Virus record (IMG/VR): IMGVR_UViG_3300037337_000038
Span: 1-27,669 of that record
DNA length: 27,669 nucleotides
Direction: 5' to 3' (one strand)
Origin: a virus
In this document: piece by piece, positions 67 through 5,279 of the stretch
How the letters are laid out: each line of letters starts with the position of its first letter
How positions within the stretch are numbered: the first letter of the stretch is position 1
Notes under the pieces: generated by a model
Databases searched by the model: none
Told to the model about the DNA's origin: nothing
Seen by the model: the letters and a program-made list of their open reading frames with translations, nothing else
Position numbers and translations under genes: made by a program

Positions 67-114
67 TGGTGGGAGATGCAAGTTTCGAACTTGCGACCCT
101 TGCAGTGTGAATGC
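67..114 (-). other. 3' part of a tRNA-Val(CAC) gene; prophage attachment-site copy
   Basis: Read on the minus strand this stretch has the 3' half of a tRNA: anticodon loop with CAC, anticodon-stem 3' strand TGCAA, five-base variable loop, a perfect T arm (GCAAG, loop TTCGAAA, CTTGC), a seven-base acceptor strand ATCTCCC, discriminator A and encoded CCA. The 5' half is missing: the anticodon-stem partner fits for only three of five pairs and no GGGAGAT acceptor strand follows to the right. Tyrosine-recombinase phages commonly integrate at the anticodon loop and leave such a 3' fragment at the end away from int. The Val assignment rests on the CAC triplet placed by loop geometry. About 106 bases of unassigned DNA (115-220) follow before the first phage gene. 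Confidence 0.7.
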
Positions 115-2038: not shown

Positions 2039-2297
2039 GGCTGCCTTGCGCCGTCTCACCAGCAAAATCAGCCTTGATAAAGCCAAAAGCGGTAATCGCC
2101 GTCAGGTCTTCAACGTCTTCCCAAACAGGCGCAATAACCACGCCGTCGTAACCCGGCTGGCCGTAGCCTTCGGGCCGCACGGCGGTGTCTTGCTGCTGCG
2201 TCATCGAGCCGCGCAGGCGCTGCATGAATGCGGCGTGTGCTGGCGTGCCTGCAATGGCGTCCAGATCGGCGCGGGTGTTAATGACAGTGGATTGCAT
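2031..2297 (-). CDS. Conserved small phage protein of the tail-fibre region, function unknown
   Basis: An 88-residue acidic soluble protein. It contains INTRADLDAIAGTPAHAAFM and a later YGQPGYDG...PVWEDVEDL segment, a pattern that seems familiar from small proteins downstream of tail-fibre genes in other phages (from memory, unverified). The ATG has GGAG eight bases upstream. Its start overlaps the end of the reverse transcriptase gene by 20 bases and its stop overlaps the next gene, so it is in the same leftward operon. A tail-fibre assembly or cargo role is possible but unproven. Confidence 0.7.
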   Translation of the reverse strand: MQSTVINTRADLDAIAGTPAHAAFMQRLRGSMTQQQDTAVRPEGYGQPGYDGVVIAPVWEDVEDLTAITAFGFIKADFAGETAQGSHV

Positions 2298-3264
2298 GTT
2301 GTTTCTCCAAGTGGTTAAAGAGGTTGCACGTGTCGGCGTGGGCTGCGTGGCCCTTCCAAGACGCTAAAAATCGGGTCAAGCCGTCTTCGTCGCCAAGCCG
2401 CTTGAGGCGGGCGATCTTGCGTTTGGCGGTGGTCACGGATTGCTTGCGCAGCAGCTTGTGGCGCGGCCAAATGCGGTAGCCCAAGAAGTTGATGCCCCGC
2501 TGAATGGGCGCTACATGCCAATGGCTGATGCGCATACCCAGCCGGTCTAGGCTGAACTGCTGAATGTCCTCAAACCAGTCGCGCAGCTCGTAGGGGTTGC
2601 TGGACAAAATCACGATGTCGTCCATGTAGCGTGTCCACTCTTTTGCGCCCAGTTTGAAGTGAATGAATCGGTCGGTTTCGCCGCCGTAGACGTTGGCAAA
2701 GAGCTGGCTTGTCAGGCTACCGATGGGCAGGCCAAAGCCGGTGCGCGGCACCATGGCGGCAATCAGCTCATTGGTGGCGCGGCATGATATTTTGCGGTCG
2801 ATGAGTTCATGCAACACAGCGAGGTTGACGCTGGGGAAAAACTTGCTGTAATCCGTTTTGAGAAAATGCGTAGCCCCCGTGCGCCGAAGACCCGACTGCA
2901 CATGCCGCACCCCCGCATGCGTGCCCATGCCGGGGCGGCAGGCGTAAGTGCCTGGTAGCAAGGTTCTTTCAAAAATGGGGCCGATGACATTGACAAGCGC
3001 GTGTTGAGCCAGCCGGTCTTTGAAGTCGAGTGCTGAGATAAGACGCGCTTTTGGCTCATAAACGGTGAACTGGCGGTACTCGCCCTGCACCCATGCGCCG
3101 CTCAAGATTTCGTCACGCAACAGGCGTAGATTGGACTCGGCATACTCTTTGAATTCGAGGTAGCCCCACGTCATGCGCTTGGCGCGCGCGGTGTTGGCAT
3201 ACGCTAAGCGCAGGTTGTCGATGTCGGCCACTTGCTCGATCAATTGCTTGTACTTTTTACCCAT
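2278..3264 (-). CDS. Diversity-generating retroelement reverse transcriptase
   Basis: A 328-residue reverse transcriptase of the DGR group. Visible motifs, numbered from the ATG at 3264: the palm motif with catalytic aspartate (KTDYSKFFPS, 136-145), the DGR-typical LPIGSLTSQ (179-187), where group II intron and retroviral enzymes have a different sequence, YMDD catalytic box (213-216) and a thumb-proximal FLGYRIWP (260-267). There is no maturase, endonuclease or RNase H domain; the length suits DGR enzymes such as Brt of BPP-1 (about 330). It would copy the TR RNA into cDNA with errors at adenines, working with Avd. ATG at 3264 is preferred over TTG at 3279; GGGGG precedes it. It lies 176 bases downstream of TR. 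Confidence 0.95.
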   Translation of the reverse strand: MGKKYKQLIEQVADIDNLRLAYANTARAKRMTWGYLEFKEYAESNLRLLRDEILSGAWVQGEYRQFTVYEPKARLISALDFKDRLAQHALVNVIGPIFERTLLPGTYACRPGMGTHAGVRHVQSGLRRTGATHFLKTDYSKFFPSVNLAVLHELIDRKISCRATNELIAAMVPRTGFGLPIGSLTSQLFANVYGGETDRFIHFKLGAKEWTRYMDDIVILSSNPYELRDWFEDIQQFSLDRLGMRISHWHVAPIQRGINFLGYRIWPRHKLLRKQSVTTAKRKIARLKRLGDEDGLTRFLASWKGHAAHADTCNLFNHLEKQHAIHCH

Positions 3265-3560
3265 GGCACACCCCCACAAAGCCGGACACGACTTTCACCC
3301 GCTTGCGCTGGCTACTCGTCGTTTTTCCGAACCCCCAAAGGTGTTTGCCGAAGCAGGACCACACGGCTGACCACATATAAGTTGGCCGGCCTGCCAAGCC
3401 GTGGCATTGGCAGAGCGCTTTAAATACCGATTCAATGTCCTCACAGACGCCGCGAGCAGAGATGTTGCTGTTCGAGTTCGTGGGCGAGTTGTTCCAGTTC
3501 GAGCAGCGGGAACCGGAGTTCGCGCCATTGTCCCAGTTGCCCCCGAATAGCACGGCGTTG
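3265..3560 (-). ncRNA. DGR template RNA: TR plus spacer to the RT gene
   Basis: Between the avd stop and the RT start are 296 bases without a credible protein gene: the 119-bp template repeat followed by a 176-base spacer. In BPP-1 the TR RNA, with flanking avd and spacer sequence, is the substrate bound by RT-Avd for cDNA priming, and the spacer here is of comparable size. The reading frame that runs through it translates TR in the VR frame but has no ribosome-binding site or sensible protein beyond it. RNA ends cannot be set from sequence. Confidence 0.8.
3441..3559 (-). repeat. DGR template repeat (TR)
   Basis: It aligns without gaps to 4000-4118 (offset 559), with 109 of 119 positions identical. 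All ten differences fall on T of the plus strand, that is A of the template in coding sense (3466, 3472, 3477, 3478, 3492, 3498, 3499, 3520, 3531, 3538). The template codons involved are seven AAC and one GAC, the codon type favoured in DGR templates since A changes at the first two positions reach many residues. The repeat starts right after the avd stop codon (TAA at 3561-3563). Confidence 0.96.
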
Positions 3561-3941
3561 TTACCCATGTGGCCCCCTGCGTTTGTGCTGTTGCACCCAA
3601 GCGCCAAGCATGCGCCCCACCTCGGCGATCAGCGTCTGCGCTGTCTCGACTTGGTGAGAGGTGATGCCCTTGACCTGGCTGCCCAGCAAAAACCGCAGCC
3701 AAAATCGCAGATGGGCCAAGCCCGCGTCTGCGACGTAAAGGCGGGATACTTGATTGGACTTGCCCGCCTCTACAAACAGTTGAACCTGACCCAGCAGGCA
3801 TTGCAAAAACATATCACGCACAACGCCATGCTTGCGCGGCAGGCTTTGGGCAATCGGGTAGAGGTAAGAGATCACGGTCTCGTACTTCTCCACAATGGCC
3901 ATTTGCGCGTAGCTTTGGGCAGCGTCTTTGTCTGGGGTCAT
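3561..3941 (-). CDS. avd: Avd, DGR accessory variability determinant
   Basis: A 126-residue, mostly helical protein with a basic C-terminal end (QQHKRRGPHG). Its size, predicted helices (about residues 15-30, 38-60, 68-90 and 95-118), basic surface character and position between the variable gene and TR match Avd, the barrel-forming four-helix-bundle protein that partners the DGR reverse transcriptase and binds TR RNA. ATG at 3941 lies 40 bases after the fibre stop; only a weak AAAGCG precedes it. The stop TAA directly abuts TR. Primary sequence of Avd proteins is variable, so the call leans on context as well as on the overall pattern. Confidence 0.88.
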   Translation of the reverse strand: MTPDKDAAQSYAQMAIVEKYETVISYLYPIAQSLPRKHGVVRDMFLQCLLGQVQLFVEAGKSNQVSRLYVADAGLAHLRFWLRFLLGSQVKGITSHQVETAQTLIAEVGRMLGAWVQQHKRRGPHG

Positions 3942-3964
3942 GGTTCGCTTTAAAAAAAGAATCC

Positions 3965-3980
3965 GCAGGCTTTCGCCCGC
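3965..3980 (-). promoter_or_regulatory. DGR target-site hairpin (GAAA tetraloop) after VR; possible terminator
   Basis: On the coding strand GCGGGC-GAAA-GCCTGC makes a six-pair stem (one G-T) with a GAAA loop, directly after the fibre stop codon and 19 bases beyond the end of VR. BPP-1 has a hairpin or cruciform with a short GRNA-type loop just past its VR that increases retrohoming. A run of seven T follows six bases later (3952-3958), so the same element could also terminate the fibre transcript. Confidence 0.72.
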
Positions 3981-5279
3981 TCAGTCAAGAATCAGGTGGT
4001 CACAGACGCCGCGAGCAGAGATGTGGCTGTACGAGAGCGTGGGCGAGTTGGTCCAGGCCGAGCAGCGGGAACCGGAGTCCGCGCCATTGACCCAGTAGCC
4101 CCCGAATAGCACGGCGTTTTCCATCTGATACGTCGAGCCGCGCCCACCGGTGTTGGCCGTCCAAGCTGCACCCGCTGCGCCGCCACCAAAGTTAGACCCC
4201 CATACCCACAAGTTGCCGCTGGCCAGCATGACGCCGTAGCGGCTGGTGTAGGCCGCACGCAAGATGGTCGAGCCGGGGTCAGTGCCACCAGAAGATGCCT
4301 CAGTCGTGCCGTAAGCCAGCGCCGCAAACTCGCCGTAGTCGGGCAGGCGCTTGCCGTAGCTCATCAACACCTCAGCCGCCTCCCAGCGATTGAGCGAGCC
4401 ATAGGCGCTGCTGCCGTTGCCGCCAAACTTGACGGGTATCTTGGGCGGGGATGACCCGTCAGCAATCGTCACGTTGTATTTGCTGGTGCCATTGGTCAGG
4501 TGGTCAACACCCAACAGGTAAATGTCCGACCAAAAGCCATCAGCCACCAGTGTCATACCGCGCGGGTCAGTGCAGGCCGGGCGAAACTTCAAGTCCCACA
4601 AGCTGTATTCGTTGATGGCCGGGGTGGTGTTGCCACCCGCTTGCGCAGCCGCATTGCCGCCTGGCGCGTAGTGAAAACCGCCGATCTTGCGGCTGTTGGC
4701 TGTGGTGTAGCCCGACGGTGCGCTGAAGTTGGCATCGGCGCGGATGGTGCCGTCAGTTGCCGCGTAGATTGCATAGTCGGTGCCCGTGGTGAGCGTTGGC
4801 ATCACTACTGCTGTGGCGGTGGCGAAGGTGAGTTGGGTGCCAAGTACATCTACGCGAGTGCCGGCTTTAATCGAGACTGTGCCAGCGCCTGTTTTGGTAA
4901 AGGCTACTGAGCTGGCGTCGGCTTTAAAAAACAGCCCTGCGCCGCCGCTATTTGCAGCGATTGCATCTTTAATCAGGGCGGGCGACATACTGCGCAAAGC
5001 CGCCTCAGCACCTGCCTGCATTTCAGGCGTCGTTGCTACAGGGCCGGACGCTGAGGGCAAGCCGGTGGCTAAATTCAAAATATTTACCCAAGCGCTGTTG
5101 GCCGCATTGCGTTGCTTTAATATGCCTGCCGTGGTGTCTGGCCACCACATGTACGGGAAGGCGGTAGCGGGTGCTGTGCTGCCGCTGTTGTTGGTAACGG
5201 CTGCACCCAGCGCTAGGTTTAGGTCGGCGCGAAAAGGCGCACCTGCCGCGTTTGCAATGTCGTAATCGTGTTGAGCCAT
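3981..5279 (-). CDS. DGR variable protein: tail fibre with C-type-lectin-fold tip
   Basis: A 432-residue fibre protein. The N-terminus (MAQHDYDIANAAGAPFRADL, later WWPDTT...LKQRNAANSAWV) resembles phage tail-fibre attachment regions. Residues about 240-432 look like the formylglycine-generating-enzyme/C-type lectin fold used by DGR targets: RWEAAEVLMSYGKRLPDYGE echoes the family's GkrLPTEAEWE signature, followed by GNLWVWGSN and the terminal GSRCS...ARGVCDH motif. The last part is VR, so the variable residues should line the receptor-binding surface, as in Mtd of BPP-1. AGGAAAG nine bases before ATG is a good ribosome-binding site. It follows the J-like tail-tip gene, suiting a receptor-binding protein. 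The receptor is unknown. Confidence 0.93.
   Translation of the reverse strand: MAQHDYDIANAAGAPFRADLNLALGAAVTNNSGSTAPATAFPYMWWPDTTAGILKQRNAANSAWVNILNLATGLPSASGPVATTPEMQAGAEAALRSMSPALIKDAIAANSGGAGLFFKADASSVAFTKTGAGTVSIKAGTRVDVLGTQLTFATATAVVMPTLTTGTDYAIYAATDGTIRADANFSAPSGYTTANSRKIGGFHYAPGGNAAAQAGGNTTPAINEYSLWDLKFRPACTDPRGMTLVADGFWSDIYLLGVDHLTNGTSKYNVTIADGSSPPKIPVKFGGNGSSAYGSLNRWEAAEVLMSYGKRLPDYGEFAALAYGTTEASSGGTDPGSTILRAAYTSRYGVMLASGNLWVWGSNFGGGAAGAAWTANTGGRGSTYQMENAVLFGGYWVNGADSGSRCSAWTNSPTLSYSHISARGVCDHLILD
4000..4118 (-). repeat. DGR variable repeat (VR)
   Basis: The diversified copy of TR, covering residues 388-427 of the tail-fibre protein. Relative to TR, coding-sense changes are A to T, C or G only. 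Residue changes in order are Asn-Tyr, Asp-Val, Asn-Asp, Asn-Ala, Asn-Thr, Asn-Leu, Asn-Tyr and Asn-His. The 25 bases at the coding-sense 3' end are unchanged and GC-rich (GCTCGCGGCGTCTG), as expected of the initiation-of-mutagenic-homing segment. Sequence identity stops at 4000, after which VR and TR diverge. Confidence 0.96.

Follow-up and report, generated by a model that had tools for sequence, protein, structure and literature searches.

Organization of the DGR cassette

The DNA analyzed here, called the window throughout, is the whole 27,669 bases of the IMG/VR record IMGVR_UViG_3300037337_000038. A diversity-generating retroelement (DGR) lies on its minus strand between positions 5279 and 2278, arranged as mtd with the variable repeat, hairpin, avd, template repeat, structured RNA and reverse transcriptase (RT), which is the order of the BPP-1 cassette. 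The following features were annotated:

3981..5279, minus strand: mtd-like target gene, 432 aa, with an N-terminal adaptor, Mtd second domain and C-terminal C-type lectin domain
4000..4118, minus strand: VR (variable repeat), 119 nt, close to the 3' end of mtd
3981..4021, minus strand: IMH-like target-site region, the VR 3' tail plus 19 bases, where the VR and TR sequences separate
3965..3980, minus strand: hairpin GCGGGC-GAAA-GCCTGC, immediately 3' of the mtd stop codon
3561..3941, minus strand: avd (accessory variability determinant), 126 aa
3441..3559, minus strand: TR (template repeat), 119 nt, between avd and the RT gene
3281..3416, minus strand: structured RNA segment between TR and RT, Rfam RF03022 Phage_DGR
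2278..3264, minus strand: DGR reverse transcriptase, 328 aa when counted from ATG 3264 (first codon of the ORF, TTG at 3279)
67..99, minus strand: probable attachment site, a 33-nt tRNA 3' end GGGTCGCAAGTTCGAAACTTGCATCTCCCACCA at the phage edge

An original prediction made from the sequence had described a complete DGR in BPP-1 order on the minus strand, and each part that it listed was recovered. The structured RNA segment, missing from that parts list, matched the Phage_DGR model of Rfam with 107.9 bits (gathering threshold 50) over its full length of 1–127. Translation of the RT probably starts at ATG 3264, because the alignment to BPP-1 brt begins at residue 6 of the ORF. The element is a complete and well-preserved BPP-1-type DGR, which confirms the prediction as to DGR identity and gene order.

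The reverse transcriptase belongs to the BPP-1 clade

The RT shares 59.9% identity with BPP-1 brt and matched phrog_1423 (E 5e-107). When compared with solved structures, the best match by far was the BPP-1 RT 8ub7 (E 6.2e-134, 450 bits), whereas any other solved RT scored at most 56 bits. Both WTRYMDDIV and IGSLTSQ motifs are present, and RVT_1 was the sole domain found in a Pfam search. No maturase domain was recognized, the group II maturase model of NCBIfam reaching 88 bits and hence remaining below its cut-off of 300.

For phylogenetic analysis, a tree of 34 RTs was used, including two annotated group II RTs and without retron RTs. The window RT grouped with those of two IMG/VR contigs, L002 and L003 (100/100), within a clade that also holds BPP-1 (100/100). 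The two group II RTs and one further RT from a MAG (L094) were placed beyond a 100/100 branch. Another RT, L097, labelled 'other', has a very long branch and came out among the DGR RTs that are more distant; its placement is unsure. Motifs, Pfam, NCBIfam and the tree thus agree on a DGR-type RT with YMDD box and IGSLTSQ motif and without intron maturase, as had been proposed. The tree itself had been suggested as a check, placement with group II introns counting against a DGR; the window RT was found in the BPP-1 clade, apart from the group II RTs.

The target gene encodes a modular Mtd-like protein

The mtd-like ORF matched the Pfam domain mtd_2nd (E 9e-30) and phrog_11262 (E 2e-126), and residues 116–432 of its product matched the solved Mtd structures 1yu0–1yu4 with E values of about 1e-122. 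Judged by this homology, the VR would lie in the C-terminal C-type lectin domain of an Mtd-like fold. The eight VR codons that differ from TR correspond to residues 344, 346, 350, 357, 359, 364, 366 and 368 of BPP-1 Mtd, and all eight carry adenines in the BPP-1 TR. The accessory protein was recognized by Pfam bAvd (E 7.4e-32) and NCBIfam DivGenRetAVD (110.8 bits, cut-off 80), and matched the solved BPP-1 Avd 4dwl with an E value of 3.3e-53.

The match to BPP-1 Mtd does not extend to about the first 115 residues of the window Mtd, of which the initial 70 show resemblance to segments of tail fibres from marine phages. Across relatives the N-terminal parts of Mtd are of many kinds, mostly unrelated to one another. 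An exchange was observed in L002, where a nearly identical cassette carries another Mtd N-terminus (window 4932–5279 versus L002:1–406), with the break near window base 4931. Modularity of targets and a wide distribution of DGRs among phages have been published before (PMC8144416).

Differences between TR and VR are confined to template adenines

TR and VR align without gaps over 119 nt with 10 mismatches, all 10 located at TR adenines. Since adenines make up 26 of the 119 TR bases, such a distribution has a hypergeometric probability of 5e-8. A search with a pattern in which the TR adenines were opened to N returned two copies in the window, namely TR and VR, with 0 expected by chance; a second VR was sought in the window by the same search, and none was found. 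In IMG/VR, the exact pattern gave no further TR/VR copies beyond those in L002/L069, L003/L071 and L070.

The pattern extends to the relatives. In 90 distinct related TR/VR pairs (window relatives L002–L073, L085 and L178–L247), 1245 of 1323 mismatches were located at TR adenines, 11 of them being N in the VR. Adenines of AAC codons were changed in 52–59% of cases, a rate similar in size to those reported for the BPP-1 RT (PMC12875486).

The hairpin behind VR is conserved among relatives

The IMH-like region contains GTCTGTGACCACCTGATTCTTGA, which is the same in BPP-1, while the flank of TR differs there (GTCTGTGAGGAC). The hairpin of the window, with its 6-bp stem and GAAA loop, begins 20 bases after VR. 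A hairpin was found in 47 of 50 distinct flanks, in most of them at +18 to +24 after VR; three of the 47 are located elsewhere and may be due to chance. The hairpin is conserved across about 45 relatives. Loops are mostly of the GRNA type (GAAA, GACA, GGCA and the like), and stems change in sequence while pairing is kept, as seen in GCGGGC/GCCTGC of the window and L002 versus GCAGGC/GCCTGC of L003. In BPP-1 the hairpin promotes homing, with a loop consensus of GRNA (PMC3240598).

VR has been renewed between closely related contigs

The IMG/VR contigs L002 and L003, which stem from other assemblies, encode RTs 99% and 98% identical to that of the window. Their TRs are identical to the window TR base for base. 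The VRs differ from that of the window at 16 and 19 of 119 bases, respectively, and 15 of these 16 and 18 of these 19 differences are located at TR adenines. Outside VR the two contigs differ from the window by 2.2% in the RT gene and by 2.9–3.7% in avd. One non-adenine change, T to G, is common to the L002 and L003 VRs and was not seen in the window.

Contigs with identical TRs and divergent VRs are what mutagenic retrohoming predicts. Because TR is identical while VR diverges at template adenines, with RT and avd only 2–4% different, recent activity of the DGR in this lineage is well supported by comparison of these contigs. The original prediction had marked activity as an inference and had named a lack of A-biased VR variation between related strains as evidence against it; in L002 and L003, VR varies at adenines and TR is fixed, which speaks for an active system. 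The three contigs constitute a clean natural experiment, the template being unchanged in all of them while the target is still changing.

Alternative explanations

Three other readings of the locus were considered. In one of them the RT is of a non-DGR type (group II intron, retron or abortive infection) and stands beside a chance or duplicated repeat. NCBIfam did rank the group II model first and returned no DGR RT model; however, 88 bits is far from a cut-off of 300, and the 450 bits obtained with the BPP-1 RT compare with 56 for the next solved RT. The tree sets the group II RTs apart, and the adenine-only mismatches, Avd and the Phage_DGR RNA also contradict a non-DGR RT, which we regard as exceedingly improbable. 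A group II intron identity is ruled out by scores and tree, and a retron identity by scores. Nor is the TR/VR difference readily explained by an ordinary gene duplication followed by selection for surface change, in which retrohoming has no part. The changed residues are situated in the lectin that binds the receptor, a place in which change is expected to be selected for, but the changes track template adenines and not codons generally, and do so at 1245 of 1323 mismatches over the 90 pairs. Selection acting by itself would be blind to the base present in the other copy, making an origin of this kind very unlikely indeed.

More weight is due to the view that the locus is a relic, its parts having been kept after retrohoming had stopped, so that the TR/VR differences are old. 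The support for activity comes from sequence comparison, and L009, a relative of the window, has a template which lost most of its adenines, so that loss of function may occur in the clade. On the other hand, RT, avd and mtd of the window are all open reading frames, and the RT differs from that of L003 at 22 of 987 bases, which alter few residues. The TR is the same in three contigs whose VRs are 13–16% different, and the window TR still has its 26 adenines. A relic is therefore distinctly improbable, and the DGR of this lineage is best regarded as recently active.

A secondary class of changes and two unusual relatives

Among changes at bases other than adenine, T to G was by far the most frequent. 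Within the 90 pairs, T to G accounted for 46 of 77 typed non-adenine changes; it occurred in 34 of the 90 DGRs and often turned TCC into GCC. Within the tract bounded by the outermost adenine changes, T was changed 36 times, 30 of them to G (p = 9e-10 against one third), and a more distant clade gave 8 of 12. The excess would be explained if dC were preferentially inserted wrongly, in keeping with a report that C is misincorporated in excess at adenines in E. coli (PMC12875486); selection or shared ancestry is a possible source as well. In another DGR clade, C to T was considered as a second error class and rejected: 27 changes were counted, and since just 3 of them lie between the outermost adenine changes, most are tract-edge differences.

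Two relatives have an unusual structure. The copy that occupies the TR position of L009 (L009:5715–5833) has just 7 adenines and a TR-type flank, and is itself changed where the TRs of relatives have adenines. A mutated cDNA may have been inserted at TR, or TR may have been overwritten by a copy of VR. A fragment of a T7-like phage, L070, contains the C-terminal part of Mtd with a VR (L070:6505–7527), 90% identical in DNA to window 3985–4907. Other genes occupy the places of avd, TR and RT, and no hairpin was seen by eye. The target in L070 is an orphan lectin in an unrelated, RT-less T7-like phage. At somewhat less than even odds, we tentatively suggest that the RT of this clade leaves a second signature, T to G from wrong dC insertion at any base, and that natural accidents of the retrohoming cycle account for the hypermutated template of L009 and the captured lectin of L070.

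The DGR is carried by a putative temperate lambda-like siphophage

Several virion genes bear on the type of phage. The portal protein matched TIGR01539 with 331.6 bits versus 172.7, the terminase is of the gpA type with GpA ATPase and nuclease, and a lambda-like tail tube protein is encoded too. The J-like tail tip matched the central tail fibre J (phrog_31, E 9.8e-85), and genes for a tape measure and a distal tail protein are also present. As a set, these virion genes mark a lambda-like siphophage. In contrast to lambda, protease and capsid are fused in a single gene. The description of the phage as lambda-like, given beforehand, holds loosely: portal, gpA terminase, tail tube and J-like tip agree with it, and the fused protease/capsid gene does not. 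At 221–709 an Rz-like spanin gene was noticed that encloses, in a different frame, a further ORF (247–474) with a lipoprotein-like signal (LLMTAC), an arrangement as expected of an Rz/Rz1 pair.

Homology of the window with L002 and L003 stops at base 66, beside the tRNA 3' end, where all three contigs diverge. Beyond the junction, the window and L002 enter different terminator-like sequences and L003/L071 enters a tyrosine integrase gene. In L071, a near-identical relative, the integrase gene matched PF00589 (E 1.8e-20); the window contig, a fragment, contains no integrase gene. Window bases 1–65 are probably host DNA with a terminator-like repeat. A temperate phage is supported, because three contigs diverge exactly at the tRNA 3' end and one of them runs into an integrase gene. 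The relatives and the junction thus argue for lysogeny, in line with the earlier term prophage. The simplest reading would be that two of the copies were integrated, each in a different host, and that the third was excised or circular.

As regards the host, a MAG labelled Bordetella carries a related RT and portal on one contig, which makes a host within the Burkholderiales likely. When used as a host clue, the tRNA 3' end was not found in any of 399 genomes from the order to which this MAG belongs. No close phage was found in INPHARED; a match to a Variovorax phage covered just 1% of the window.

Proposed function and comparison with known systems

We propose that the window carries a complete, recently active BPP-1-type DGR, that the phage is a temperate lambda-like siphophage and that its host probably belongs to the Burkholderiales, and assign this reading a probability of about 0.96. 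By analogy with BPP-1, a complex of RT and Avd would copy the TR-containing RNA with frequent errors at adenines. The mutated cDNA would then replace VR at the 3' end of mtd and leave TR unchanged; the IMH-like region and the hairpin that follows it presumably direct this replacement. At least eight residues of the lectin tip of the tail fibre would change, and the phage should thereby be able to bind host receptors as these change. Reverse transcription, homing route and effect on host range are all modelled on BPP-1.

The likeness to the BPP-1 cassette (mtd-avd-TR-brt) includes gene order, homology of Avd and Mtd over their functional parts, the lectin residues that are diversified, the IMH sequence and the GAAA hairpin. 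Beyond the RT gene, both phages have a tRNA 3' end as attachment site, a probable one in the window; for BPP-1 this tRNA is tRNA-His. BPP-1 is a podovirus and is classed as Rauchvirus, whereas the virion genes of the window point to a lambda-like siphophage. The two systems further differ in the first about 115 residues of Mtd, which form another domain in the window, in the length of TR/VR (119 nt versus 134 nt annotated in BPP-1) and in the hairpin stem (6 bp versus 8).

Of the 67 viral and 2 genome relatives, almost all that have sufficient flank carry a TR/VR pair with a spacing of about 530–585 bases. The IMG/VR relatives (L002–L068, L178–L247) share the cassette, with TR/VR of about 112–131 nt and mismatches almost only at template adenines; their RTs are 53–99% identical to that of the window in the L002–L068 set. 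Two tandem mtd-like targets before one RT were seen in L062 and L068, judged from long repeats 1129 bases apart. The prophage-like region in contig CAMDCO010000002.1 (L072) of the MAG mentioned above is related in RT (75% identity), portal (68%) and a GACA-loop hairpin; it has another Mtd N-terminus, and its host label, Bordetella parapertussis, is uncertain.

That the element is undescribed had been put forward as an inference and is weak, as the best-studied DGR is closely related to it and over 30,000 DGRs have been catalogued (PMC8144416); its kind is known from BPP-1 and from dozens of IMG/VR relatives. The picture of what DGRs are or do is unchanged. The BPP-1 group gains an environmental lambda-like phage, with relatives close enough for cis elements, error spectrum and exchange of the tail adaptor to be read from nature.
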